A DNA stretch of 64,000 bases from an uncultured Bacteroidales bacterium. GTDB taxonomy: Bacteria; Bacteroidota; Bacteroidia; Bacteroidales; Muribaculaceae. Below the pieces are notes generated by a model. It had not been told where the DNA came from. It worked only from the letters and a program-made list of their open reading frames with translations, and ran no database searches. Positions 19,458-33,829 of this stretch are shown piece by piece. Numbering within the stretch: position 1 is the first letter of the stretch; the number at the start of each line of letters is the position of its first letter. The position numbers and the translations under genes are program-made. The DNA lies in assembly GCA_947573135.1 (NCBI GenBank), contig CANPDU010000001.1:124001-188000 (forward strand), given 5' to 3'.

Positions 19458-21332
19458 TTACCAGGCATATCGGTTGAGGTCGGAGAGGCGGGGGACGCCC
19501 GACAGCGCCGGGATCTCGTAGATGACTTGCAGGGCGAGCGCACGGGTCATCAGCATGTCGTCGTGATAGCCCCGCCGGGCGCCGAAAGCGCCTCTCTCGT
19601 CCTGACGGTAGACAGCGAGCTCATAGCATGCTCCAGCCGAATTCTCGACATACTCGTGCTCGCGCACGGCGCGGACGAGACCGTTGATCAGAGCGGCCTT
19701 TGTCGCGCGGTTGGTGTGAAAACCTATGCGCCACGAGGTCACAGGCGAACCGTCGTCGGATCTTGAGCGCCGGTAGAGATTATGATAGCTGTCGGCAAGC
19801 CGCTGAAGGACATAACCGTTCGATCCGCCGCCGTTGCCCGACTCCGACTCGAGGGAGTTGCTCTCGATGACGAGGAGAGCCTCGTTGTAGCGGACCGCCA
19901 CGACACGGGCTATGTCGACCAAAATGTCGTGATCGACGTGTCCGCGCCACTGTGCGACGACCTCGTGACGGTCAGAGAAGGCGTCGCAGCGCCTCACCAC
20001 TGCAATGACCGACCAGTCGGCCGAGGCGGTGCGTCCGCCGACATCGACGGCCACAACATATTCGGCTCCTGGGCGCGGCTCCTCCCAGATCTCCAGCTCG
20101 CCGCCGGGACGGTCATATAAAGCGTCACCTACAACGGCGCAACGTCGCTCCGGCTCGCGGCAGTCCTTGAGCAGGCGGTCGATATCAGCCTGGTCGAACA
20201 CTCCGGCGTTTGTGGCGCCGAAGGCCTCAGTGTCGGTTGAAGGATATTCGGCGTAGAGTTTCTGAATGTCTTTGTCGGCACGGGCTTTCTCGCGGTACCA
20301 GTTGATCTGTTCGAGAGTGCATCCGAGTCGCCACAGATTGAGCTCGCGGTCAGACAGCGACGCGACAAAGTCTGCCGGGGGCACCGAAAGCGGCAGGGTG
20401 TTGGTCTCGACCTCAAACCAGGCGACAAACACCGGTCGCTTGTCGCTCTCGCCGTTTTTGGCGCGCTGCCACTCCTCGTAGAAGTAGTTGCCCATGCCGT
20501 TGGCGGTCGACTCCATGGCCACGAGCGAGTAAGGAATGAGAGCTACCGATCCGCAGACACTGCGTATCAGATCGTTGGGCGACTGCGAGGGGGTGTCGCG
20601 CCAGAAAGCGGTCTCCGACAGATGAGCCATCGCTATGTCGTAGCCGCGGATCGCATCCTGAGCCTCGCTCGACGTGACGGCCACGCGGCAGCCGCGTCCG
20701 GCAATCTCGCGGACGTTGGACGACCCTTCGAAAGGCTTGAAAAGCAGTTTTGTCTCACCGTCGTCGCCGCCGTCCCACATGTCGGCCGGATAGTCGCGCA
20801 CAAGCTCGGTGTACATGCGCCGGATATTGACCGCGCTGTCTTTGTTATGGCAGCATATGAGCGAACTCCAGTTGGGGAGCAGACACATCTGGATCCATGC
20901 CATATAGTTCTGTATCAGCGTCGAGCATCCCCACTGGCGCGCCTTGAGCACGATGATGCGTATCGGACGGCCGGCGAGGCGGTCGGCCTCGAGGACGGCG
21001 AGCACCTTGCGCTGCCCCCGGTTGAGCACCAAGGGTGTCAGGCGCCAGCCTGTCTTGGGCTTGATCTTCACGCAGGTGACACACCAGTATTCGAAATCGT
21101 AGCGGCAGCGCAGTATGCGCCACTGTTTCTCGCCCGAAGCGACGGCATAGAGCGGATCGTCGAGCATGGCGCGCGGCACACGCGCCCTTGACAGCCCCCT
21201 GACCGGCGTATCGACCTCAACGCGGTCGCCGAAGCACGATATGCCCGCTACGGGGTCATAATCGTCGGTCCGGGCGGCCTTGCGCCTTTCATTTTCGGCG
21301 ATAAAAGCCGGAATGTCTATTCTCTTTTCCAT
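19458..21332 (-). CDS. Phage-type terminase large subunit (packaging ATPase/nuclease)
   Basis: This 624-residue protein carries all expected terminase marks. In the ATPase half these are the Walker A variant KARQWGCST (residues 130-138) and the acidic LSETAFW block (238-244). In the nuclease half they are the metal-binding acids D430 in VAVDVGG, E490 in LLVIESN, and HDD (590-592) in GYHDDMLMTRALAL. Terminases pump DNA into a procapsid through the portal and cut it. Nothing suggests decay: full length, intact catalytic residues, no frameshift. It is the second gene of the left phage-derived operon, 4 bp after the 832-residue gene. The portal and capsid genes lie 7.5-12.8 kb away on the other strand. 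Confidence 0.92.
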   Translation of the reverse strand: MEKRIDIPAFIAENERRKAARTDDYDPVAGISCFGDRVEVDTPVRGLSRARVPRAMLDDPLYAVASGEKQWRILRCRYDFEYWCVTCVKIKPKTGWRLTPLVLNRGQRKVLAVLEADRLAGRPIRIIVLKARQWGCSTLIQNYMAWIQMCLLPNWSSLICCHNKDSAVNIRRMYTELVRDYPADMWDGGDDGETKLLFKPFEGSSNVREIAGRGCRVAVTSSEAQDAIRGYDIAMAHLSETAFWRDTPSQSPNDLIRSVCGSVALIPYSLVAMESTANGMGNYFYEEWQRAKNGESDKRPVFVAWFEVETNTLPLSVPPADFVASLSDRELNLWRLGCTLEQINWYREKARADKDIQKLYAEYPSTDTEAFGATNAGVFDQADIDRLLKDCREPERRCAVVGDALYDRPGGELEIWEEPRPGAEYVVAVDVGGRTASADWSVIAVVRRCDAFSDRHEVVAQWRGHVDHDILVDIARVVAVRYNEALLVIESNSLESESGNGGGSNGYVLQRLADSYHNLYRRSRSDDGSPVTSWRIGFHTNRATKAALINGLVRAVREHEYVENSAGACYELAVYRQDERGAFGARRGYHDDMLMTRALALQVIYEIPALSGVPRLSDLNRYAW

Positions 21333-21336
21333 GGCA

Positions 21337-23832
21337 TCAGTCTTTTATATAGCTTAAAGTTACAGCTGAGATCACCGTGTCGGGCGATACACGCCCCTGG
21401 AACGAGACCGCCGCGCGGCGCAGCGGCAGAGCCGGCAGGGCAACTTTCAGCGGCGAAGCCTGACGGCCGTCGAGGCTCAGTCTCAGCGACGGCGAGGGCT
21501 CTTCGTCGGCTGTGCTGACGCGCCTAACGGCGAGCGATCCGTAGGCGACCGACCGCGAGCGCATGTCGAAAGTCAGTCCGACCGGCCTGACAAAGTCGTC
21601 CGAAACGCTGATCGCGCAGTCCCAGCGGACATAGACCGAGCCGGCGGCGGGCGTCTCGGCTCCGAGACGGCAGAGACTGCCGCCGACGACAGCATAAGCG
21701 TCGAGCGACGGAGACCGGACCGCATCGTCGCGCGTGGCCGACTGCAGCGTCGAAAGATCGACCACAGCCGTGAGGCCGTCAGCGGCCGCAGAGCCCCAGA
21801 GCTCGTCTCTGACAGGATCATAGGCCAGCACATCGGCATCGAAATCAGACAGCAGAGTCACCGCGCGCGAAGCCCCGACTTCGACCAGGTTCCCCGACGC
21901 AACGGCAAGCAGGCGCCCGGCGGCATCGGCGGCCGCATGCCGCCCGACCACTCCGCGACTGTCGACAAGGCTGACACTCAGCGAGGCGCCTGAAAGGGTC
22001 ACCGCATATATGCCCCGGCTTGTGAGCGCCGAGAAACGCACACGCGAGAAATCCCAGCTCGACTGTGAGCGCGACGCCGGAAAGAGAGCGCTGACCTCGC
22101 CGTCGCCTACGGGAGCAAGAGACACTGCCGCCGTCGGAGCGTCGGCACGCGCAGCGGCGACAAAGCCCGGCAAAGGCTTTCTGACCCGGCGTTCGGCCGG
22201 AATGACGAAGGTCTGCGCCTCGCCTTCGGGCACAAAGGGTGCGAACCCGGGACTGACATAGACCGACATGTCGCCCGAGGGCAAAGGCGTGAGCGGCACA
22301 GTGGTACGGCGGACCTTACCTCCCGCACTGACAATCAGCGTCATCGCCACGGCGTCGGCCGACGGATAGCTCAGCACGGGGTTGAGTTCGGCAGGCGCGC
22401 CTTCAGTGCCCTGCGCCACGGCCACAAGCTGCTCGTCGCCCGAGGCAAAAGTTACGGCGACAGCCGATCTCCACGCTCCGGCCCCGGCACGGCTACCGGC
22501 AAAAAAGTCGGCCGACCAGCCCCTGAAACGCAAGGCTTCGAGCGAACCCCAGAGCACATTCCCGGCCGCCGACGCACAGCAGGCGGCAGCAAAAGCATGA
22601 GGCGGAGAGATACGCGACTGTGAGTCGGAGACGGTCTCGGGGCGCCGCGCCAGAGCTGCGGCCACCGCGCGGCACTCGTCGTCGACGCCCGAATAAGGCA
22701 GCGTCAGCCGAGGCTCGCAGTCGATCACAGAGCCCTCGGCAAACGGGCCTCTGATCACAGCGACAACCTGCTCTGCGTCGGCCTGCACGGCAAGCATCCG
22801 GCGCAGACGCGACTCTCCGGCAGCGGCATTACCCGAGCTCACCGACAACCCGGCGCCCGGCATCGTCAGACGCAGCATCGTTCTGTCGGCCGGATCGTTG
22901 ACGAGCACGGCCACAGCCTCGCCCGAGGGATCGAAGGGATGGAACTGCGGACAGGCGAGTATCTCTATACGGCTGACCGCCGCAGCCATAGCCTTGCTGA
23001 CGGGGCGGCTCGACACGACGGCCGGACGCCAGCCGCGCGCCGCTATCTCATAGCCGTCGAGCGTACGGCGGTCGTCGCTCGTAACAGCCACGGGAGCCGT
23101 GAGTCTGCCGCTGTCGCGAGGTCCGAGCAGCAGAGGCGGCGAAATGCAGAGCGTCGAACCGTCGTGACTCACAAGCCGGTAACGCACAATCGCCGGAGCG
23201 CAGCAGACGCCTGCGGCAGCCGCCTGTGAGACCACTTCAGTATAAGCCCGGCGCAGATCGCCGGTGACGGCGCGGCGGTCACTGTCGTTGAGCGGCTCCG
23301 AGGCCGAAGAATAGTCGCCCGACAGACGGCGCGGAGCGACCGTCGCCGTGCAGTCGGCAGTCTCATGTGCGGTCAGCGACAGGGCTGTCCATTCCGAGGG
23401 ATCGATAAGCAGCCATGCGCTTTCGCCGGCGTCGTAGGCCATGCGGCGCGGCCCGTCGGCGGTCATGACGGTCAGCATGTCGCCGAATGACACGGCGCAG
23501 CTGATCTCCGAGTCGGTGACGGCGATAAGGCTGACGCTCTCGGTCGACACGACGCCGGCGCCGCAGTCGGCTCCGACGAGGTCAATAGCTCCGAGGCGGC
23601 ATCCGTCGGCGACAATAAGCATCTCGACGCCAGGAGCCGGCGACATCTTGGTGAGCGGCCACCAGGCTCCTTCGGCGACGGGCTCGGGACGGCCTACGGG
23701 ACGCAGCACGGTCTCGCCGGTCGGCAGGATTTCGGTTCGCAGATTATGACATCTCATTGTGGCGCTTTTTGCTGACGGGGCCACTTTCGCCATGATGCCG
23801 CGCGCGGCGGCTCTAATTTTTGAAGGTCTCAT
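21337..23832 (-). CDS. Unrecognised 832-residue protein, phage-derived operon
   Basis: First gene of the left phage-derived operon. It is rich in Ala, Ser, Val and Arg, with many short beta-strand-like stretches and no signal peptide or membrane helix. It starts with a basic segment (MRPSKIRAAARGIMAK). Repeated patterns such as VLAYDPVRDELWGSA and DAYAVVGGSLCRLG suggest beta-propeller or beta-sandwich blades, as in tail or fibre-like structural proteins. Co-transcription with the terminase and the phage-type promoter point to a virion role, possibly tail or adaptor, but this is inference. I use ATG 23832 instead of 23898, because the longer start lies upstream of the -7 box at 23877-23884. 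Confidence 0.6.
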   Translation of the reverse strand: MRPSKIRAAARGIMAKVAPSAKSATMRCHNLRTEILPTGETVLRPVGRPEPVAEGAWWPLTKMSPAPGVEMLIVADGCRLGAIDLVGADCGAGVVSTESVSLIAVTDSEISCAVSFGDMLTVMTADGPRRMAYDAGESAWLLIDPSEWTALSLTAHETADCTATVAPRRLSGDYSSASEPLNDSDRRAVTGDLRRAYTEVVSQAAAAGVCCAPAIVRYRLVSHDGSTLCISPPLLLGPRDSGRLTAPVAVTSDDRRTLDGYEIAARGWRPAVVSSRPVSKAMAAAVSRIEILACPQFHPFDPSGEAVAVLVNDPADRTMLRLTMPGAGLSVSSGNAAAGESRLRRMLAVQADAEQVVAVIRGPFAEGSVIDCEPRLTLPYSGVDDECRAVAAALARRPETVSDSQSRISPPHAFAAACCASAAGNVLWGSLEALRFRGWSADFFAGSRAGAGAWRSAVAVTFASGDEQLVAVAQGTEGAPAELNPVLSYPSADAVAMTLIVSAGGKVRRTTVPLTPLPSGDMSVYVSPGFAPFVPEGEAQTFVIPAERRVRKPLPGFVAAARADAPTAAVSLAPVGDGEVSALFPASRSQSSWDFSRVRFSALTSRGIYAVTLSGASLSVSLVDSRGVVGRHAAADAAGRLLAVASGNLVEVGASRAVTLLSDFDADVLAYDPVRDELWGSAAADGLTAVVDLSTLQSATRDDAVRSPSLDAYAVVGGSLCRLGAETPAAGSVYVRWDCAISVSDDFVRPVGLTFDMRSRSVAYGSLAVRRVSTADEEPSPSLRLSLDGRQASPLKVALPALPLRRAAVSFQGRVSPDTVISAVTLSYIKD

Positions 23833-23873: not shown

Positions 23874-23938
23874 CTGCAAAGTTACGGCGCAAAAACACCG
23901 TATTGACAGCAAAATCGGACGACTGTCCGATTTAACAC
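23874..23938 (-). promoter_or_regulatory. Promoter/operator of the left phage-derived operon
   Basis: On the minus strand this reads GTGTTAAATC, then the perfect dyad TCGGACAGTCGTCCGA, then ATTTTGCT, a 23-nt spacer, and the -7 box TAACTTTG. The same module, with identical spacing, precedes the right phage-derived operon at 28391. Confidence 0.75.
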
Positions 23939-24014
23939 GCACTTTTTGAGTAAAAAAGTGATAACCCGGGCTTTAGAGCCTGAAAATTTTTCAGACAAGT
24001 CTGCTGAAATGACA

Positions 24015-24047
24015 GAGGGCGCTCCGTCAGTAATGACGGGCGCCCTC
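24015..24047 (-). terminator. Terminator hairpin after the secreted-protein gene
   Basis: GAGGGCGC and GCGCCCTC flank a further CCGTCA/TGACGG pairing, making a long GC-rich stem 31 bp past the stop at 24078. The T tract after it is weak. Confidence 0.65.
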
Positions 24048-24077
24048 ACGGTTATAGCGGATTGTTGATCCTGATTA

Positions 24078-25235
24078 TCAGCGGATCACCTGTTTGGTGA
24101 CTTTGTCGCCGCGGCAAACGATGAAGATACCGTTTTCGGGGTTGTCAACGCGCACACCCTGGAGGTTGTAGTAGACAGCCTCAGCTTCGGCAGCCTCGAT
24201 ATCCTCGATGCCGCTCGACTGTGCGGGAGCGTAGCTTACAACGTAAAGCGACGGAGCATTGTTGTAGACTGTAACAACGATAGTAACATCATATGTGCCG
24301 GCTTCGACCGATGCCTGTTCATAGTTGTTGCGGAATGAGAGCTCAACATCGCCGACTTTGCCGGTGAAATTAGACTTGGTTGCAGGAGTAGCCTCAGCAA
24401 AGACAACGTCTTTTACAACGACAACGCTGTTGACGAGATCGGTTGTGATGTCGGCGGCTGCGACGGCCTTAGCAGTGAAAGTGCCGGCGGTTGTAGCGGG
24501 AAGAGCGTCAAATTCGATTTCGGGAGTTGCACCGTTATAGAGTTTGTAAGTGCCTTCCCAACCTGCGGGAATAACATCGCCTACAGAGAGTGTGTTAGAT
24601 CCGTAAAGCTGGATGAAATCGCCGGCTTCGTCACAAGCAAATACATTGCTGTTTCTAACAAAACCGACAGTCAGAGCATAGTCAACAGCGATTTTAGTTC
24701 CTGTTGCAAGAGCCTTTGTGGCAGCTACAGACGCAACTTTAGTCGCTTCGGGTTCGGGTTCCGGTGCGACTTCAGTATCACTGACAACAATGCCTGTCAC
24801 ACGGAACTGGTTGGCCGATGCAGTCATAGTCACAGTCTTGGCGGCAGTAGTGCTTGAGATAGTGAGAGTCTTGGCTGTAGCATCATACTTCTGAGTCCAG
24901 CCTTCGCTGACTGTCTGCTCACCGCCGTAGTTGCCACCCTGGGAAGAGAGTATGACATTTTTGAAATCGAAATCAGCGCTGCTGATCACAATTTGAGCTT
25001 TCTTGTAAACACGAATCTGATCACCGGGTTTAATCAAAGCTGTAGACGATTCATGTTTGATTGTTTTGATAGTGAAAGTTTTTTCGCCTGCTTTGACTGT
25101 TGTTTCAAAACCATTAGCATCGCCTGTCCATTCAAGAGAAGCATAATTGTCTGCTCCGAAGATAGTGTACTGCTCAGCGTTGGCACCCATTACACCAACA
25201 GCCGCAACTGCAATTGAAAGTAAAAGTTTTTTCAT
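24078..25235 (-). CDS. Secreted repetitive protein with a C-terminal sorting-like tail
   Basis: This 385-residue protein has a signal peptide (MKKLLLSIAVAAVGVMGANA), low-complexity Thr/Ala-rich beta domains and an acidic linker (PEPEPEA near 160). The last 30 residues have the form YYNLQGVRV-x-NGIFIVxxGxKVTKQVI, a tail common in Bacteroidales secreted proteins and similar to type IX secretion sorting domains. Its function is unknown; it may be a surface or extracellular adhesin-like protein. It lies 36 bp after the endonuclease/phosphatase gene and may share its transcript. Confidence 0.75.
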   Translation of the reverse strand: MKKLLLSIAVAAVGVMGANAEQYTIFGADNYASLEWTGDANGFETTVKAGEKTFTIKTIKHESSTALIKPGDQIRVYKKAQIVISSADFDFKNVILSSQGGNYGGEQTVSEGWTQKYDATAKTLTISSTTAAKTVTMTASANQFRVTGIVVSDTEVAPEPEPEATKVASVAATKALATGTKIAVDYALTVGFVRNSNVFACDEAGDFIQLYGSNTLSVGDVIPAGWEGTYKLYNGATPEIEFDALPATTAGTFTAKAVAAADITTDLVNSVVVVKDVVFAEATPATKSNFTGKVGDVELSFRNNYEQASVEAGTYDVTIVVTVYNNAPSLYVVSYAPAQSSGIEDIEAAEAEAVYYNLQGVRVDNPENGIFIVCRGDKVTKQVIR

Positions 25236-25271
25236 AAAAAAATAGATGTTAGTTAACAGTTAATTATTTGG

Positions 25272-26330
25272 TTATTTTGATTTTGGTTTCATGTAGCGGA
25301 TGAGGAGGATTTCGGTCGGGAAGTGGTCGGAGTAGCCGTTGAGATATGATCCCGACGCGAATGTGCGCCGCGGATAGCCCTGACGGTTGCCTTCGGTGTC
25401 CTTGAGAAAATCTTTGTTGAGCACATCGGCGCGGTAGAAGTGCCAGCGGTCTTCGGGAGCGTTGGCAATGTTGCCCGATATGATTATCTGGTCGAAGAGG
25501 TTCCACTGGCTCTTGTAGGCGAGAGTGCCGATGCCGGAGTCGAGTTTGCGCCAGAATGGGTTATAGAACTCATGGTCACCTACGCCGTCGGCGTCACGCT
25601 TGGCGCCGAGCACTTTGGCACACGATTTGTCCATGGGGTCGTCATTGAGGTCACCCATGATGATCACGCCGATGTTGGGATCGACGCGCCAAAGCGAGTC
25701 GGCGATCTGCTTCGACAGGGCCGCGGCAGCCTCACGGTTGGGCGACGATTGTTCCTGGCCGCCGAGACGCGAAGGCCAGTGGTTGACAATCACGGCGATG
25801 CGTTCGCCGCCGATGGTTCCGACGACACACATCTGGTCGCGTGTGCGGAAGGGTATGGTCGTGAGGCGGTGGTTGGTGACGCGCTCAAATTTGAACATTC
25901 GCGGATTATAGAGCAACCCGACATCGACGCCGCGCGCATCGGGCGAGTCGTGATGGACGATCTGAAGGTTCCACGGTTTCAGTTCGGGCTGTGCGACAAG
26001 ATCCTCAAGCACCGTGCGGTTTTCGATCTCGCTCACGCCGACAATGGCCGGACCCATAGGTGTGCCGGGCGTGGTGAACTGCGAGATGGCATATGCGAGA
26101 TTGTGGAGCTTGGCGTTGTATTTCCGCGAATCCCACTGTTTCTGTCCGCCGGGAGTGTATTCGAGGTCACGGTTTTCGGGATTGTTGGGTATGGTGTCAA
26201 ACAGGTTTTCAAGGTTATAGAAAGCGATACCGACCATCTGGCGGCGGCCTTCAGTATTGTTTTTCCGGGCTGTCGCAACAGAGAGAACGGCGATCAGCAC
26301 AATGGCAAAGGTAAAAAATCGTTTCATCAA
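25272..26330 (-). CDS. Exported endonuclease/exonuclease/phosphatase family protein
   Basis: The 352-residue product has a signal peptide (FFTFAIVLIAVLSVATA) and the EEP fold marks AFYNLENLFDT, GVSEIENRTVLEDL (the metal-binding Glu), VNHWPSRLGG, IIMGDLNDDP and a terminal GYSDHFPTEI with the catalytic Asp-His. EEP enzymes cleave phosphodiesters in DNA, RNA, phospholipids or inositides. With a signal peptide this one acts outside the cytoplasm, so nucleic acid or phospholipid scavenging are the likely options. Confidence 0.9.
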   Translation of the reverse strand: MMKRFFTFAIVLIAVLSVATARKNNTEGRRQMVGIAFYNLENLFDTIPNNPENRDLEYTPGGQKQWDSRKYNAKLHNLAYAISQFTTPGTPMGPAIVGVSEIENRTVLEDLVAQPELKPWNLQIVHHDSPDARGVDVGLLYNPRMFKFERVTNHRLTTIPFRTRDQMCVVGTIGGERIAVIVNHWPSRLGGQEQSSPNREAAAALSKQIADSLWRVDPNIGVIIMGDLNDDPMDKSCAKVLGAKRDADGVGDHEFYNPFWRKLDSGIGTLAYKSQWNLFDQIIISGNIANAPEDRWHFYRADVLNKDFLKDTEGNRQGYPRRTFASGSYLNGYSDHFPTEILLIRYMKPKSK

Positions 26331-26405
26331 TCTACGGCTTGGTTTTGAGACCGTAAAGATAAAAATTTTTTATTTCAACAGCAAAAAAAATTTACAGGCC
26401 TAAAT

Positions 26406-26450
26406 CAGACAGGTCTGACTTGTCCGACCCGTCCGCCTTGCCCGACTTGC
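26406..26450. repeat. Five 9-bp tandem units (CCGACTTGT type)
   Basis: Units are CAGACAGGT, CTGACTTGT, CCGACCCGT, CCGCCTTGC and CCGACTTGC, immediately past the stop of the DUF1573 gene. Same family as the array at 12194. Confidence 0.8.
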
Positions 26451-26455
26451 CGGCC

Positions 26456-27523
26456 TCAAAAGATTTCGCCGACGGCGCGGATGGTGCGGACCGGGTCGGC
26501 CGGGTCGTTGGTGATGACTGATATGCGGGCGTTGAGTATATCGCCGCTGATCGCCGACGGATCGGCTGTGACAGTGATCACGGCCGATTTGCCGGGCTTG
26601 ACGGTCGTGCGGCCGATCGTGACACCGACGCCTCGGTCGACAGTATAGACGCGGCGCACTTCGAGCGGCGAGCGCCCGTCGTTAGTGAGGGTCACTTCGC
26701 GGCTGACACGGCCGCCCGAGCGGTCGATGCGCCCGAAATCCACAGCTCCGGCCGACAGCGAGGCTGCTGGAGCATCGGCGCGGTCGTCGTCGCTGAGCGA
26801 ACTGAAATCTTCCTGTATTATAGCGGTGAAAGGCACGGTAAACTCACGGCTGCCATCGGATACACGCAGCGAGTCTTCGAGCAGTCCCCACTCCTCGGTC
26901 TCGCCTGTACGCAGAAAGCAGATCATGGTCAGCTGCTCACCGGGCCCGACGGTCTTAGGCTCGAAACTGACGTCGACATAGCGCGGCTTGGCCATGACTC
27001 GCGGAGTGATGCTGTCGGCGCTGCGATTGTAGGCCTCGGAGTAGACGGTCTTGAGATGAGGACGGTCGACGCGGCCGAACATCACGGCTCCGTCGCGGAA
27101 CTTCAGCGCGCCCTTGTCGACGGGATAGCGGCCGGCGACGCTCGTCTGCGCTCCGATCACCACGCCTCGGATCGTCAGCCGGGTCTTAGGCGCGTTGGAG
27201 GCCGTGGTCTCGACGCTGACCGTCTTGCGGAAGCGGCCGGGACGTCCCTCGGGATTGTAGGCGACGGTGATCGAGGCGGTGTCGCCCGGAGCGACGGCCT
27301 CAGACGGATAAAGCGGACGCGTGCAGCCGCACGACGCACGGGCAGCGATGACGGTCACCGGCGTGTCGCCGGTGTTGACAAAACGGAAGTCACAGCTGAC
27401 GGCGCCATGGTCTTCGTCGAAGGCTCCGAAATTGTGGTCGACGCCGAGCCATGTTATTTCAGATTCTGCCGAGGCGGCAAACGAGACACATGCAGCGCAT
27501 GCCAGACTCAATATCTTTTTCAT
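26456..27523 (-). CDS. DUF1573 domain exported protein
   Basis: This 355-residue protein has a signal peptide (LSLACAACVSFAASA) and two or three Ig-like beta domains. The first contains the DUF1573 signature (FRFVNTGDTPVTVIAARASCGCTRP, then YNPEGRPGRFRKTVSV). A second such domain near the C terminus has VTLTNDGRSPLEVRRVY and ISVITNDPADPVRTI. These ASH/MSP-like domains usually mediate protein contacts in the periplasm. No enzymatic motif is seen. It lies between the channel and EEP genes on the same strand. Confidence 0.88.
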   Translation of the reverse strand: MKKILSLACAACVSFAASAESEITWLGVDHNFGAFDEDHGAVSCDFRFVNTGDTPVTVIAARASCGCTRPLYPSEAVAPGDTASITVAYNPEGRPGRFRKTVSVETTASNAPKTRLTIRGVVIGAQTSVAGRYPVDKGALKFRDGAVMFGRVDRPHLKTVYSEAYNRSADSITPRVMAKPRYVDVSFEPKTVGPGEQLTMICFLRTGETEEWGLLEDSLRVSDGSREFTVPFTAIIQEDFSSLSDDDRADAPAASLSAGAVDFGRIDRSGGRVSREVTLTNDGRSPLEVRRVYTVDRGVGVTIGRTTVKPGKSAVITVTADPSAISGDILNARISVITNDPADPVRTIRAVGEIF

Positions 27524-27601
27524 CTTCTACTTATATATATATGAGCTTGTATATATGAGCTTGTTTAATATGTGCAAAGATACGCATTTTTCACATTCCG
27601 G

Positions 27602-28303
27602 TCACGCACGGCCGATTTCTTCGCGTTCTCGCCGGCGCCGCTGCAGATATTTGGTGACGATGTCGCCGAGATAGACCGTGAAAAGCGGAAACATTATCAC
27701 ACCCATGCCCGAAAGTACGGCGGCGAGTATCTTGCCGGCCACTGTGACCGGATTGACGGGAGCGCCGATGGTCGTGGCTTCGAGACTGCACCACCACAGC
27801 GACGACCAGTAGTCGGTGATGTCGGGATTGACGGGCTGCTCCTGCTCGAAGAAGATCAGCGAGGCGAAGTAGACCATCAGAAACACTATGCTGACATATG
27901 ACCAGAAGATGCCGACAATCTTCGACGTCGACACGTAGCTGATAACCAGCGCCATGGCATAGGCCGCCCGGACCAGGGGAATGAAGCGCACGAAATAGAT
28001 CTGCTGCTCGTCGAGCTGCACGTGACAGTAGGTGATGATGTTGAGATAGGGTATCGAGACGAGCAGAAAGAATATATTGTGCCAGAAAAAACGGCGTCTG
28101 TTGTCGGAGAGCGCCATCTGGGCGAAAAATTCGATGATGAAGATAATACACACCCATAGCTGGAAACGCATGTAGACCGGGTTGGTCAGAAACGGTTTCT
28201 GAAGAAAGGTATCTATCGAAATAAACAGTATCAGAGCCACCGACAGACCGAGAACGATCCACCGCAACATGTTGCTGATATCACGCTTGACATTTTTTTT
28301 CAT
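27602..28303 (-). CDS. Ion channel of the voltage-gated potassium channel superfamily
   Basis: The 233-residue protein has four or five hydrophobic helices, a voltage-sensor-like segment (YFVRFIPLVRAAYAMALV), a pore helix SLWWCSLEATTIG and a final TM helix, followed by a basic tail (YLQRRRREREE). The topology fits a six-helix or shortened K-channel subunit. The filter is unusual: where TVGYGD is expected it reads TIGAPV, so potassium selectivity is doubtful and a different permeant ion is possible. It is divergent from the right phage-derived operon, whose promoter lies 88 bp upstream of its start. Confidence 0.8.
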   Translation of the reverse strand: MKKNVKRDISNMLRWIVLGLSVALILFISIDTFLQKPFLTNPVYMRFQLWVCIIFIIEFFAQMALSDNRRRFFWHNIFFLLVSIPYLNIITYCHVQLDEQQIYFVRFIPLVRAAYAMALVISYVSTSKIVGIFWSYVSIVFLMVYFASLIFFEQEQPVNPDITDYWSSLWWCSLEATTIGAPVNPVTVAGKILAAVLSGMGVIMFPLFTVYLGDIVTKYLQRRRREREEIGRA

Positions 28304-28390
28304 TTTCGACGCACTTTTTTATCGTTGTTGAAACGCTGCATAACTAACACACCGTCACACGATAATGTTCGCTCCGGCGGCTTTTTCGAT

Positions 28391-28455
28391 GTGTTAAATC
28401 GGACAAACGTCCTATTTTGCTAAAAATCATGAAGAATTGCATTATAACTTTGCAG
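28391..28455 (+). promoter_or_regulatory. Promoter/operator of the right phage-derived operon
   Basis: The element is GTGTTAAATC, dyad TCGGACAAACGTCCTA (5 of 6 arm pairs), ATTTTGCT, a 23-nt spacer and -7 box TAACTTTG (28445-28452). By eye, 28 of the first 31 bases equal the left module, and the 11 bases TAACTTTGCAG are identical. Confidence 0.75.
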
Positions 28456-28519: not shown

Positions 28520-28804
28520 ATGGAAACTTCTGAAACCATCAGCAACACCGAAGAACTTCAGCCGGAAACCACGGCCGAAAACAATGCCGGCGCCGGTCAG
28601 GACACTGCCGGACTGGAACGCCTTCTCGAAGAGGCCGAGCAGCGCGGATATCTCCGCGGTCGCAACGAGCGCATCGAGCAGGAGGTGATGAACCCTCTGG
28701 CCGCCACAGCTCCGGCCGATGACAGCGGCGACGGCGACGACGACGAAACCTGCCCGAGCTTCCTCGCCCATCTCCGCCCCGGCTTCTGGGACTCAGTCAA
28801 ATAA
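28520..28804 (+). CDS. Small acidic protein, possible scaffold, phage-derived operon
   Basis: The 94-residue product is very acidic, with a Glu/Thr-rich N terminus, a central amphipathic helix (LERLLEEAEQRGYLRGRNERIEQ) and a poly-Asp segment before FLAHLRPGFWDSVK. A short helical acidic protein placed directly before the capsid gene is the usual position of a scaffolding or head-assembly factor. No homologue is recognised, so the role is inferred from order. The ATG lies about 65 nt after the phage-type promoter. Confidence 0.65.
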   Translation: METSETISNTEELQPETTAENNAGAGQDTAGLERLLEEAEQRGYLRGRNERIEQEVMNPLAATAPADDSGDGDDDETCPSFLAHLRPGFWDSVK

Positions 28805-28882: not shown

Positions 28883-30163
28883 ATGTCTACACAAATTCTC
28901 AACGGCGAAAATTCAGGTCGCCACATCGTCGACGGTCCGCTTACCGTCGCAGTCAGCAACGAAGCCGCTCCCGGCCTTATCCGCAACGCAATCGACCAGC
29001 GCATAGTCAAAGTGCGCCCGATGTCGACGCCCATCGATCAGCTCTCACGCTGCGCCGGCGCAAGACCGGCCCGGTCGATGACCGTAGAGTACTACTCGGT
29101 CGATCCCAAGAAAACACAGTCGAAGGTCGAGGCCGACGTGGCCGCAGGCATCGGCAAACGCCGCTCCGACGGCATCTATACCCACAACATCATGACCGAA
29201 GACGACAACCTCTTCGAACCCTCCGAGACTCTCATGCTGCCGACGGTCATGGTCCACAAGACAGCCCGTTCGGCAGGCGAGCCGCTTGTAGTCTACGTCA
29301 CGGCGCGCAATGCCGACACCGGCCTCGAAGTCATTGCCGTCAACGCCGACATCGCCGAGACCGGCAAGCCTGCCATACCGGCCATCGCCAAAGGTTCGCC
29401 TGTCGTAAGGATGGGACGCGCTGCCAGCGAACTCGACGTGCAGACGCCTCAGTTCCAGGCGCTCCCTACCAAGACAGACAATAATTGTCAGATATTCAAA
29501 ATGCAGGTCGAGGAAAGCACGTTCCACAAGATAGCCAACAAGGAAGTGGGCTGGACCTTCTCCGACCAGGAAGAGGCGGCAATCATCGACATGCGCCTCG
29601 GCATGGAGAAAAACTTTCTCTTCGGAGCAAAGTCGAAGATCATCGACCCCAACAAGCACGAAGAGATATATCTCACCGGCGGCATCTGGCAGCAGGCCGG
29701 ACGCGAGATCGACGTGACGCTCGACGACTTCACCGAGAAAACTCTGATCGATATCGCCCAGGCGGCCTTCACCGGCAACTGCGGCTCAAAACGCAAGATA
29801 CTGCTCTGCGGCTCCGAACTTATGAGTATCATCTCGAAGATCGACTGCCAGCGCATACGCCGCGCCTCTGACTCGACCGTCATCTGGGGGCTTGAGTTCA
29901 GCCAGATCGTCACCAACTTCGGCAACATCTTCGTCGTCCACTCGGAGATCTTCGACCAGTGCGGCCACGCCTGCGACGCCATGGTCATCGATCCCGACTA
30001 TCTGACAAAGTATGTCCACATACCGTTCCACACCGAGAAACTCGACCTGCGCCGATCCGGCACACGCAACACCTCGGCCGTGGTGATCACCGAGGCTTCG
30101 TGTGTCGTGCTCCGCTATCCCGACGCCCACCTGCGTGTCAACGGTGTTAAAGTCGCCGACTGA
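28883..30163 (+). CDS. Major capsid protein (SU10/DUF5309-like, HK97 fold)
   Basis: This 426-residue protein has the layout of SU10-type major capsid proteins: an N-terminal stretch RNAIDQRIVKVRPMSTPIDQ, a mid region with WTFSDQEEAAIIDMRLGMEKNFLFG, the family-like KILLCGSELMSIISKID, a FGNIFVVHSEIFDQCGH block, and a final MVIDPDYLTKYVHIPFH followed by a tail-strand region VVITEASCVVLRYPDAHLRV. It would form the icosahedral or prolate shell. There is no protease gene and no long delta domain. It is intact and lies between the acidic protein and a putative connector. Confidence 0.82.
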   Translation: MSTQILNGENSGRHIVDGPLTVAVSNEAAPGLIRNAIDQRIVKVRPMSTPIDQLSRCAGARPARSMTVEYYSVDPKKTQSKVEADVAAGIGKRRSDGIYTHNIMTEDDNLFEPSETLMLPTVMVHKTARSAGEPLVVYVTARNADTGLEVIAVNADIAETGKPAIPAIAKGSPVVRMGRAASELDVQTPQFQALPTKTDNNCQIFKMQVEESTFHKIANKEVGWTFSDQEEAAIIDMRLGMEKNFLFGAKSKIIDPNKHEEIYLTGGIWQQAGREIDVTLDDFTEKTLIDIAQAAFTGNCGSKRKILLCGSELMSIISKIDCQRIRRASDSTVIWGLEFSQIVTNFGNIFVVHSEIFDQCGHACDAMVIDPDYLTKYVHIPFHTEKLDLRRSGTRNTSAVVITEASCVVLRYPDAHLRVNGVKVAD

Positions 30164-30165
30164 CC

Positions 30166-30744
30166 ATGATCACCGAATACTCTCATCTTCAGATGCTCCA
30201 GACCTGGCGCCGGTGCGCCGGGCTGGAGTCTTCGGCGAGCGACTGCTCGGTCGGGCGCTTTGACGGCACCGATGTCGACCCCCGGCTGTCGGCGATGATG
30301 CGGCAGTGGTATCTCGGACTTCTCGACAGCGGCGATCCCTGCCTCACCGGACCGCCGGCCGACGCCACTGATCTCGTATCTCCGGTCATGACCGACGACA
30401 GCGACAGGCAGGCCGTGATTGCGGCCGATCCTTCGGTCAGGCGCCTCACTGCCGTCAGGCTCTCGGGCTGGAAACGCCCGGCCGTGATCGCCGATGCCGA
30501 CAGCATCAGAGCCACACTGGCGCTGCAGCACAACCGGTTCTCGCGTGCAGGCACGACGTCGCCGCTGGCGTGGCGCAACGCCGACGGAACGGTATGCGTC
30601 TGCCCGGCCGACAAAGATTCGACCGTGACCGCCGCCACGGCGTTTGTCGACACCGGCAGCGAAATCTACCGCCTCGACGAGCGGGCACTCGCGACCATTC
30701 CTATTTATATCAGCAACCATCAGACAACAAGCATACTCCTATGA
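30166..30744 (+). CDS. Putative head-completion/connector protein, phage-derived operon
   Basis: The 192-residue protein starts 2 nt after the capsid stop and overlaps the portal ATG (ATGA), so it is translated with both. It has no signal peptide or membrane helix. The N-terminal helix (YSHLQMLQTWRRCAGLE) and a mixed alpha/beta body are seen, but no family motif was recognised. Position between capsid and portal suggests a head-tail adaptor or neck protein; this is inference only. Confidence 0.65.
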   Translation: MITEYSHLQMLQTWRRCAGLESSASDCSVGRFDGTDVDPRLSAMMRQWYLGLLDSGDPCLTGPPADATDLVSPVMTDDSDRQAVIAADPSVRRLTAVRLSGWKRPAVIADADSIRATLALQHNRFSRAGTTSPLAWRNADGTVCVCPADKDSTVTAATAFVDTGSEIYRLDERALATIPIYISNHQTTSILL

Positions 30745-32168
30745 TGACCCCCGACACCAACCTCCAAGTGCTCACCGCCGCACGCGACGCGTGGCTCGCA
30801 GCCTCTTCGTTCCGTCAGCGGCGCGACCGCTACAAACGCTACACCTACGGCGATCAGTGGAGCGATCCGGCCGTCGACCACCGCGGGCACCCGGTAGCCG
30901 AAGCCGAACTGCTCAGCCGCGACGGCCGGAAGCCGCTGACCAACAATCTGATCCGCCAGATCGTTAAAATCGTGATCGGTCGCTACCGCACGGCCAGCCG
31001 CGACGACGGACGCTACTCTGACGACAGCCGCGCGTTTGTGAGCGACAACCAGCTGCTCGAACTCGACTGCCGCATGCTCGAGGAATTCCTGATCTCGGGC
31101 TGCGCCGTGCAGCGCGTCAGCCGCGAGACCCGCCGCGGCCGCAACAGGCTGTGGATCGACAATGTCGACCCGCGCGCATTTTTTGTCAACGCCTACCGCG
31201 ATCCGCGCGGCAACGATATCGAACTCATCGGCATGCTCCACGATCTGCCGTTTCCCGAAATCGTGAGCCGTTTCGGCCGTGGCAGCCGTCAGCGCGCCGC
31301 AGCTTTGGCCCGGTCCTACGCCGTGACGTCGGCCGACCTTGCCTTTGCCTCGCCGCGGATGCTCGGCGAGCCTGACGGCGATACTTCCGACTTCTTCAAT
31401 GCTCCGGCCGGACGATGCCGTGCGATAGAGGTCTGGACTCTCGACTGCCGCAACACCATAGTCTGTCACGACCGCCGCGACGCCCGGGCATTCAAGGTCG
31501 GCAACTCGGCGGCCGCCAGAGCCTCGATCAGAGACACCAACGACCGCCGCAGACTCAAGGGCGAGCTGGCCGTCGACTCGCGGCAGTCGCTCGACTTCGT
31601 ATGGCACTGCCGCTGGTTTGCTCCCGACGGCTCGCTGCTCGCGTCCTACGACTCGCCCTTCGCCCACGGCTCACATCCCTTTGCCGTAAAACTCTATCCT
31701 CTGACCGACGGCGAGATCCACTCCTTTGTAGAGGATGTCATCGACCAGCAGCGGTCGATCAACCGCATGATCGTGATGATCGACCATATCATCGGATCGT
31801 CGGCCAAAGGCGTGCTGCTCTTTCCCGTCGAACAGAAACTGCCCGACTACTCCTGGGAAGACATCTCCGACGCCTGGGCCAGATCCAACTCCATCATCCC
31901 TGTCACAGGTCGCAGCGCCAACATGCCTCATCAGGTGGTCAGTTCGGGCGCCGACTGCGGCGCATATCAGCTGCTCGCCCTCCAGATGAAGCTCTTCGAC
32001 AACATTTCGGGCATCGGCGACGTCGTGGCCGGACGCAATGTCTCGCCTTCGACCGGCAACGCCGTCTACGAAAACCAGTTGCGCAACTCCATCATCGGCC
32101 TGACCGACCTGCTCGACTCATTTGCTGCCTTCAAACGAGAACGTGATAAAAAGGCAGAAAAATTATAA
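30741..32168 (+). CDS. Phage portal protein
   Basis: The 475-residue product resembles portal proteins: an N-terminal helical stem with RRDRYKRYTYGDQW, then KPLTNNLIRQIVKIVIGRYR (the entry into the portal core), then a wing region with IDNVDPRAFFVNAYRDPRGNDIELIG. Late marks are HSFVEDVIDQQRSINRMIVMIDHIIGSS and a C-terminal helix region (LLALQMKLFDNISGIGDVVAGRN). Portals form the dodecameric vertex through which terminase drives DNA. I use ATG 30741, which overlaps the upstream stop; the ORF track start (30570) lies inside the connector gene. It is intact and matches the terminase encoded 9.4 kb away. Confidence 0.85.
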   Translation: MMTPDTNLQVLTAARDAWLAASSFRQRRDRYKRYTYGDQWSDPAVDHRGHPVAEAELLSRDGRKPLTNNLIRQIVKIVIGRYRTASRDDGRYSDDSRAFVSDNQLLELDCRMLEEFLISGCAVQRVSRETRRGRNRLWIDNVDPRAFFVNAYRDPRGNDIELIGMLHDLPFPEIVSRFGRGSRQRAAALARSYAVTSADLAFASPRMLGEPDGDTSDFFNAPAGRCRAIEVWTLDCRNTIVCHDRRDARAFKVGNSAAARASIRDTNDRRRLKGELAVDSRQSLDFVWHCRWFAPDGSLLASYDSPFAHGSHPFAVKLYPLTDGEIHSFVEDVIDQQRSINRMIVMIDHIIGSSAKGVLLFPVEQKLPDYSWEDISDAWARSNSIIPVTGRSANMPHQVVSSGADCGAYQLLALQMKLFDNISGIGDVVAGRNVSPSTGNAVYENQLRNSIIGLTDLLDSFAAFKRERDKKAEKL

Positions 32169-32253: not shown

Positions 32254-32682
32254 ATGAACCGTAAAACTCTAATCCAGCTACGCGACGAAGACTTCACAGA
32301 ATGTCTGCGTTCGACAATCCTGCGGCACCAGCGCGAACGCCGCGACACAGCCGCGGCCGCCATCATCTCGGAGGCTCTCGCCTCGCGTCCGCGCCGCTAC
32401 TATCTCTCCTACTCGACCGTCTCGACCCAACTGTCGCGTCTGCGCGGCAAAGGCCACCTCAAGACGGCCGCCAACCGCAAAAGCACCCTTGCGCGCAGCC
32501 AGTGGGCCGACATCAGCTCGGCCGTCGACCGCTATCTCTGCCGCAACAAACGCGCCACGATCGGCGAAGCCATCACCCACGTCGTCAACTTCGAGCGGCC
32601 CAAGCGCTTCTACATCTCCGACAAGCGCGCCCGCGAACTCTTCCGCTGCGTCAGCCGCCGCACCTACAGCCTCGTCGGCTGA
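32254..32682 (+). CDS. Small basic protein with an internally duplicated domain
   Basis: The 142-residue protein is strongly basic. Two 49-residue halves align without gaps: the first contains RPRRYYLSYSTVSTQLSRL and the second RPKRFYISDKRARELFRCV, each preceded by a helix with an Arg-rich turn (RERRDT and RNKRAT). A tandem winged-helix or helix-turn-helix arrangement that binds DNA is a reasonable guess. In phage terms it could serve as a terminase small subunit or a regulator, but no family was recognised. It follows the portal gene after 85 bp, with its own promoter. Confidence 0.7.
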   Translation: MNRKTLIQLRDEDFTECLRSTILRHQRERRDTAAAAIISEALASRPRRYYLSYSTVSTQLSRLRGKGHLKTAANRKSTLARSQWADISSAVDRYLCRNKRATIGEAITHVVNFERPKRFYISDKRARELFRCVSRRTYSLVG

Positions 32683-32752
32683 CCGCATCTCTGACCCCGA
32701 TTCACCCCCTTGTCATTCACTTATTCAATTCATCTCTGACCGTTCACTTGCA

Positions 32753-33190
32753 ATGAAAATCTCAATTTCAATCACCTCTGTCATCGACGACATCTGTGCC
32801 GACTCTGCCATCAGAGCCATCTTTAACCGCCGCGACACCGTTCCGCCGCTGCTCACCGGCGACCACTGCGAGGCCCTGGGCCGGGTAGTGGTCACGGCCG
32901 CGGCCATGACTGCCGGACGGCTCGCCGCGCGCCTGACGAAATTCGCCGTCAGTGAAGCCGACGGCACCATCGGCTTTGAGGTCGCCGACACCACGCGCGT
33001 CCGTCCCGAAGCGCTGCGCCACTACCTTGAGACCGCGGTGAAATTCGCCGCGATGTATCTCGTCGCAGTCCCGGCCGGCGACACCGCCGCGGCCGACAAC
33101 TACCTCCGCTGCCACAACCTCACCCTCGACAGCGCCGCCACAGCCCTCGACTCCCGCCCCGCCCTCACCCTCCGCCCCCACTACTGCTGA
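32753..33190 (+). CDS. Hypothetical protein downstream of the phage-derived operon
   Basis: The 145-residue protein is Ala-rich, with no signal peptide: a helical N-terminal part (ITSVIDDICADSAIRAIFNRR), a central segment FAVSEADGTIGFEVAD, and a helix EALRHYLETAVKFAAMYLVAVPAG. The ORF track start (32489) lies in the preceding gene's frame shadow; ATG 32753 is the first plausible start. Base composition matches the other phage-derived genes, which supports grouping it with them. Function unknown. Confidence 0.6.
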   Translation: MKISISITSVIDDICADSAIRAIFNRRDTVPPLLTGDHCEALGRVVVTAAAMTAGRLAARLTKFAVSEADGTIGFEVADTTRVRPEALRHYLETAVKFAAMYLVAVPAGDTAAADNYLRCHNLTLDSAATALDSRPALTLRPHYC

Positions 33191-33222: not shown

Positions 33223-33253
33223 TTGTCTGATCATATGATTGTCGCTATCTTTG
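33223..33253 (+). promoter_or_regulatory. Promoter of the four-helix-bundle gene
   Basis: TTG-N20-TATCTTTG, with a palindrome ATCATATGAT inside the spacer. The transcript would start after the TTG used in the ORF track (33239), which moves the gene start to 33281. Confidence 0.6.
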
Positions 33254-33280
33254 CTTAACAATACTAATACCGATTATGAG

Positions 33281-33829
33281 ATGAGCGAACTGATACCGGC
33301 CGGCCACGGCAATTACAAGCAGTTGTTGAGCTATCAGAAGACTGATGTTATCTACCGGATTACATATTTCTTTTGTCACAGCTTTCTGCAACGCGGCGAC
33401 AGGACTATCGACCAGATGGTGCAGGCTGCCCGCAGCGGGAAGCAAAACATAATCGAGGGTTGCGCCGCTTCTTCGACATCAGCCAAAACCGAGATCAAGC
33501 TGGTCAACGTCGCAAAGGCAAGTCTGAAAGAGCTGCTGGAAGATTTTGAGGATTACCTGAAGACCCGCAACGCCCGGCAATGGGAAAAAGGAAGCGCTGA
33601 GTATGAGACCATGCGGCGGCTTGGCAGAGACCACAATGACGCCGAATTCTTCATGAAAATCGTCGAAACCCGGCCGCCGGAGACCATCGCCAATATGGCG
33701 ATAATACTGATCAATCAGGCTGATTATCTGCTTTACCGCCAGCTTGAACGGCTATCGGCTGACTTTGTTGAAAACGGCGGTTTCTCGGAGCGCATGACGG
33801 CCCTCCGCCGCAACAAGAGAAAATATTAA
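33281..33829 (+). CDS. Four-helix-bundle (S23/Avd-like) suffix-domain protein
   Basis: The 182-residue protein contains the S23 four-helix-bundle pattern: YKQLLSYQKTDVIYRITYFFC, then RTIDQMVQAARSGKQNIIEGC, then KIVNVAKASLKELL-like helices, plus a C-terminal extension typical of Bacteroidales suffix-domain members. Relatives are encoded in 23S rRNA intervening sequences or serve as Avd, the accessory protein of diversity-generating retroelements. Neither an rRNA gene nor a reverse transcriptase is in the window, so this is a stand-alone member of unknown role. It ends just before a 9-bp repeat array. Confidence 0.82.
   Translation: MSELIPAGHGNYKQLLSYQKTDVIYRITYFFCHSFLQRGDRTIDQMVQAARSGKQNIIEGCAASSTSAKTEIKLVNVAKASLKELLEDFEDYLKTRNARQWEKGSAEYETMRRLGRDHNDAEFFMKIVETRPPETIANMAIILINQADYLLYRQLERLSADFVENGGFSERMTALRRNKRKY

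Follow-up and report, generated by a model that had tools for sequence, protein, structure and literature searches.

In Rhodobacter capsulatus, the activator GafA directly binds the promoters of both the structural cluster and the lysis cassette of the gene transfer agent RcGTA (PMC6363796). Six criteria for gene transfer agents (GTAs) have been published (Kogay 2022; PMC9662315): the first three concern particle proteins derived from caudoviricetes, full endogenisation, often at several loci, and mostly vertical inheritance or co-diversification, and the other three own genes that are not fully packageable, the packaging of mostly random host DNA and its delivery to other cells. Gut viromes carry experimental signs of chromosomal DNA packaged by gut bacteria, and patterns resembling generalised transduction or GTAs were seen in 46 contigs of a mouse faecal sample (PMC12946183; PMC7667829). 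Our searches of open-access papers found no GTA reported in Bacteroidota. The sigma-ABfr promoter of this phylum combines a -7 box, TAnnTTTG, with a TTTG near -33 (PMC7366714).

The window analysed here, a stretch of 64,000 nt, derives from an uncultured Bacteroidales bacterium of the Muribaculaceae (GCA_947573135.1, contig CANPDU010000001.1, positions 124,001-188,000, forward strand), whose genome measures 2.85 Mb, and holds two divergent phage-type operons with the following features:

19458-21332, minus strand: large terminase subunit (TerL), PHROG 2, E 8e-22; downstream of the nozzle gene
21337-23832, minus strand: short-tail nozzle-like protein of about 831 aa, by AlphaFold and Foldseek; start codon ATG at 23832, some 40 nt beyond the -7 box
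23874-23938, minus strand: nozzle-terminase promoter/operator module, score rank 3 of 18 in its own genome; 31-nt box at 23938-23908, dyad TCGGACAGTCGTCCGA at 23930-23915, 23-nt spacer, -7 box TAACTTTG at 23884-23877
24078-28303, minus strand: four host-type genes between the operons, from the ORF list; by sequence DUF5689-like, endonuclease-like, DUF1573-like and ion-channel-like
28391-28455, plus strand: capsid-operon promoter/operator module, score rank 2 of 18 in its own genome; 31-nt box at 28391-28421, imperfect dyad at 28399-28414, 23-nt spacer, -7 box TAACTTTG at 28445-28452
28520-28804, plus strand: small acidic protein before the capsid gene, a probable scaffold by position; homologues in 62 examined capsid loci
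28883-30163, plus strand: major capsid protein, SU10_MCP family, PF17236, E 9.7e-53
30166-30744, plus strand: p192, probable head-tail adaptor, encoded by a conserved gene that lies between those for capsid and portal and has homologues at 70 capsid loci
30741-32168, plus strand: P22-like portal protein, PF16510, E 4.8e-16; PHROG 156, E 6e-36
32254-32682, plus strand: p142, all-helical, probable small terminase subunit by synteny with TerL
32744-33190, plus strand: p148, the capsid operon's conserved final gene, with homologues at 32 capsid loci

An earlier note on this DNA had proposed a promoter/operator module common to both operons, with 28 of the first 31 and 47 of all 65 bases identical between 23938-23874 on the minus strand and 28391-28455 on the plus strand; both counts are exact on realignment, and realignment and shuffle counts place the common module far above chance. 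Two details of that description hold in part: the 23-nt spacer is identical in length but not in its letters, which match at 8 of 23 positions, and the dyad TCGGACnnnnGTCCGA, claimed for both operons, is perfect at the terminase operon but broken at one position (GTCCTA) at the capsid operon. The exact core GTGTTAAATCGGACNNNNGTCC occurs in the window at the two operon promoters and nowhere else, against a shuffle expectation of 0.03 even when 3 mismatches are allowed. The module is laid out as a dyad box, TTAAATCGGACAnnnGTCC.ATTTTGCT, followed by 23 nt of unconserved spacer and by TAACTTTGC, which fits TAnnTTTG, the sigma-ABfr -7 box of Bacteroidota that is also contained in TAACTTTGCAG. To serve as a normal -33 TTTG box, ATTTTGCT would have to lie about 5 bp further downstream, and comparison with the standard sigma-ABfr promoter finds the -7 box at all sites and the TTTG shifted by about 5 bp. 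Such a displaced or missing -33 TTTG would be expected of activator-dependent promoters, and we read the module as a putative dyad operator beside a -7 box read by the primary sigma factor; the operator, most likely the binding site of a dimeric activator, would stand in for the missing -33 box, but the dyad box could instead bind a repressor.

For the nozzle-like protein, whose gene adjoins TerL wherever it was found, no family was recognised in the profile libraries, and a PDB search by sequence alone returned no match for either this protein or p192. Its AlphaFold model (pLDDT 82.9) has as top Foldseek PDB matches the podophage nozzle and tail proteins of Pa223, SU10, Pam1, P22 (gp10), T7 and crAss001, at modest TM-scores of 0.2-0.4 that possibly reflect differently placed domains. 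Homologues of p192 also occur in Bacteroides temperate phages. A weak BlaI-like match had suggested p142 as the regulator; in a prophage contig (L367) its homologue directly precedes TerL, in Bacteroides temperate phages its homologues stand just ahead of that gene, and p142 is therefore a probable small terminase subunit (TerS) instead, its AlphaFold model (pLDDT 91.7) finding no match in the PDB. Just behind the capsid operon, 33239-33829 holds a gene for a protein of the 23S rRNA-intervening-sequence type (PF05635, E 3e-5, below the cut-off).

A genome-wide scan for the box, proposed in the same note and carried out with a sequence model built from eleven sites, returned 18 sites at E<=3e-6, followed by a gap to 0.05, and the reversed-pattern control gave zero matches in the same genome. 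The box is thus not confined to the two operons, nor are its remaining sites a random set of promoters: several precede phage-type genes (endolysin, holin-like, DUF6291-like and RecA-like ATPase genes). Besides the two operons, six of the 18 sites precede RecA-like AAA_25 ATPase genes and six precede copies of a small protein, MTDKTLHLTDKK..., with no family match; single sites lie before a DUF6291-like gene, before an Amidase_2 endolysin followed by a possible spanin, before a 187-aa protein that is holin-like by eye and matches no family, and before an ORF upstream of tilS. The six ATPase paralogues (MEHKF...; L029, L030, L031, L032, L034 and L115) have a degenerate Walker A motif, GPRxxDKT, and each is a lone gene. 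Copies of MTDKTLHLTDKK... (L003, L004, L006, L009, L010 and L102) have near-identical promoters and diverging C-terminal ends, and the family would stem from a recent duplication of gene plus promoter. At the tilS site (L116:9291-13493; G000:C5:65291-69493), an ORF of about 190 aa behind the regulon promoter reads in frame into tilS, so that either a short phage-type gene lies here or the promoter also drives the tRNA-lysidine synthase.

The capsid and terminase operons are core, usually single-copy and co-diversifying with the host in Muribaculaceae-type genomes. The capsid gene was found in 138 of 149 family genomes (106 of the 110 of high quality), nearly always as one copy, and TerL in 136 (104 of the 110); family capsid genes match at 40-58% identity and retain long open frames with few interior stops. 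Usually the two operons are unlinked, each flanked by unrelated housekeeping genes: in G007, G010, G094 and G096 they share a contig at distances from about 100 kb to nearly 1 Mb, and in G057 they are likewise far apart. Capsid and TerL distances follow those of AlaRS (Mantel r 0.61 and 0.74, respectively, p 1e-4, 27 genomes) as well as each other (Mantel r 0.74, p 1e-4, 27 genomes).

The exact dyad of our genome is absent from the capsid promoters of relatives, which keep the -7 box, because the boxes are lineage-specific: in most species the capsid and terminase promoters share a box upstream of the -7 element, and its sequence differs by lineage. The best ungapped score between capsid and terminase promoters was 13.84 for matched versus 4.45 for mismatched pairs (32 genomes, permutation p<=5e-5), and the own terminase promoter outscored all 31 others in 22 of the 32 genomes; in the other 10 some other pairing scored at least as well, to which absent or multiple boxes contributed. 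The AlaRS control was flat for capsid promoters (5.00 versus 4.94, p 0.42) and gave little signal for terminase promoters (5.50 versus 4.91, p 0.03). Unlinked operons sharing a lineage-specific box are what one regulator per species would be expected to produce, and we infer both such a regulator and the simultaneous expression of terminase and capsid genes that had been deduced from the window.

In genus g6 the operator reads CATTATCGC, followed by 23 or 24 nt and TAnYTTTG, with 19 sites in G034, 16 in G090, 14 in G117 and 11 in G073, and the reversed pattern gave zero matches in 149 genomes. Behind this operator lie genes for the capsid, an endolysin, a holin (PF05105, above the cut-off), a DUF6808 (spanin-like) protein and an AAA_25 ATPase, and p192, portal and p142 form a separate operon that has a box to itself. 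The g6 regulon is dominated by small basic DUF6291-like proteins, of which each genome has about 5-8 (L294, L295, L301, L302, L305, L306, L309, L310, L315, L317, L320, L322, L324 and L325). The operator-promoter is also found upstream of genes for fructose-bisphosphate aldolase, gyrA and prolyl-tRNA synthetase (proS; L297, L298 and L311), which are possibly host genes recruited into the regulon.

We consider it probable that the two 65-nt stretches are copies of one regulated promoter and that they belong to the regulon of a domesticated podovirus resembling a gene transfer agent. The fit to a GTA follows from the regulated promoter common to a dispersed and vertically inherited packaging motor, portal, nozzle and lysis genes. 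About 16 further copies of the module would constitute a regulon that switches on podovirus parts from unlinked chromosomal sites, namely capsid, portal, nozzle, terminase, endolysin, a holin-like protein and accessory proteins; upon activation, cells in a special state would make short-tailed particles, package chromosomal DNA for transfer and lyse. We count against the domesticated-podovirus reading that 12 of the 18 sites in our genome belong to two gene families and that ordinary genes (gyrA, proS and aldolase) stand behind some of the g6 sites.

Across the order, the same 22 of 295 genomes carry both the capsid protein and TerL, and they come from Muribaculaceae and six or seven other families. 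Four of those other families have the set less dispersed: 14-46 kb separates TerL from capsid, fibre-like and lysis genes, and the intervening stretch holds housekeeping genes, among them rplU-rpmA in two families; no shared capsid/terminase box was found in four other-family genomes (G175, G235, G404 and G437). A fibre-like protein, as long as 1270 aa, belongs to the set in related families (L431, L432, L433, L429 and L430). In the capsid tree, Bacteroides temperate phages form a separate clade (100/99) and the chromosomal capsid clade is separate from most phages. The chromosomal clade is represented in IMG/VR by only five contigs: L367, which sits at its base, resembles a true prophage, and three others that we inspected are 6-10 kb fragments with the same mini-operons.

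Real phages and a prophage exist whose capsid, terminase, p192 and p142 genes are homologous, and their two operons diverge as in the window; both facts would suit a decaying or rearranged prophage whose operons both retain the phage's own late promoter. This is nevertheless the least probable of the readings we weighed, given that the genes belong to the core, occur in about 95% of high-quality family genomes, usually once each, remain long open frames with few internal stops although at 40-58% identity, diverge congruently with their hosts and share their promoter architecture with 16 other sites. Hardly likely, too, is that the box is part of a mobile repeat with an outward promoter, its shared sequence stemming from copying and not from a regulon: gene-plus-promoter duplication fits the six near-identical promoters of one small-gene family and the six of the ATPase family, but the capsid and terminase copies agree in box and spacing and not in spacer letters, single-copy endolysin and DUF6291-like genes carry the box as well, and the pattern recurs in other species with unrelated boxes.

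More weight, though still an unlikely place in our assessment, goes to co-regulated phage genes kept for another use, such as a particle of PBSX or killing type, a device for lysis, or a capsid for storing or exporting a cargo that is not random host DNA. DNA transfer is not proved by genes for capsid, terminase, nozzle and lysis by themselves, the promoter is common to multi-copy small proteins too, and a search of ten family genomes with a single fibre query, run without a positive control, found no tail fibre; against such a use, the conservation of TerL together with portal, nozzle and probable TerS argues that DNA is packaged. For the set as a putative GTA, the findings agree with three of the six published criteria (PMC9662315): the particle proteins are caudoviricetes-derived (SU10_MCP, P22 portal, TerL and nozzle fold), they are endogenised as unlinked mini-operons among housekeeping genes, and they are core, single-copy genes with Mantel r of 0.61-0.74 with AlaRS and a capsid clade separate from most phages. 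The regulon genes are spread over the chromosome, which would make their joint packaging unlikely, depending on head size. In several genomes the operons lie 100 kb to about 1 Mb apart instead of forming the contiguous, excisable unit of an active prophage and, judged by operon positions and phylogeny, the set is not one.

The evidence points to a previously undescribed gene-transfer-agent-like system, and we lean towards regarding it as, to our knowledge, the first GTA of Bacteroidota: a podovirus domesticated before several Bacteroidales families split, which in Muribaculaceae would be dispersed over about 14-19 loci per genome, each with a promoter of its own and linked by nothing but a species-specific operator, whose sequence would change at all loci in step as it evolves. 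The finding goes beyond what had been supposed, concerning a genome-wide regulon of a putative domesticated phage and not two operons. If this is true, a dominant gut bacterial family would count a machine dedicated to gene exchange among its core traits, and this could explain part of the DNA exchange observed in gut Bacteroidales. Its regulation would be unusual, one machine's scattered parts being tied together by an operator that has altered from lineage to lineage at many sites at once, and the co-evolution of transcription factor and operator would be directly measurable. The species-specific boxes offer a route to the missing genes and to the regulator.

Among known systems, the human gut-virome study assigned GTA activity to Oscillospiraceae and Ruminococcaceae, Muribaculaceae being named in neither gut-virome paper (PMC12946183; PMC7667829). 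The promoters share the -7 box TAnnTTTG with the sigma-ABfr promoter (PMC7366714) but have no TTTG at the -33 distance and a dyad operator just upstream instead. The Bacteroides temperate phages BF1-TP2, BS-TP4 and BKO1-TP3 (PQ571263, PQ571277 and PQ571269) resemble the set in capsid (39%), TerL (35%) and portal (34%), with p192 and p142 homologues in both phages examined for them, whereas these phages are contiguous genomes of 64-68 kb with a capsid clade of their own. RcGTA (PMC6363796), like the present set, consists of vertically inherited, phage-derived structural and lysis genes in the chromosome, and its one activator, GafA, on structural and lysis promoters may have its counterpart here in one operator at both operons. 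The head-tail genes of RcGTA, however, form one cluster of different ancestry, whereas the genes described here are podovirus-like (SU10-type capsid, P22-like portal and nozzle), are divided among many small operons and stand behind an operator whose sequence changes between species.
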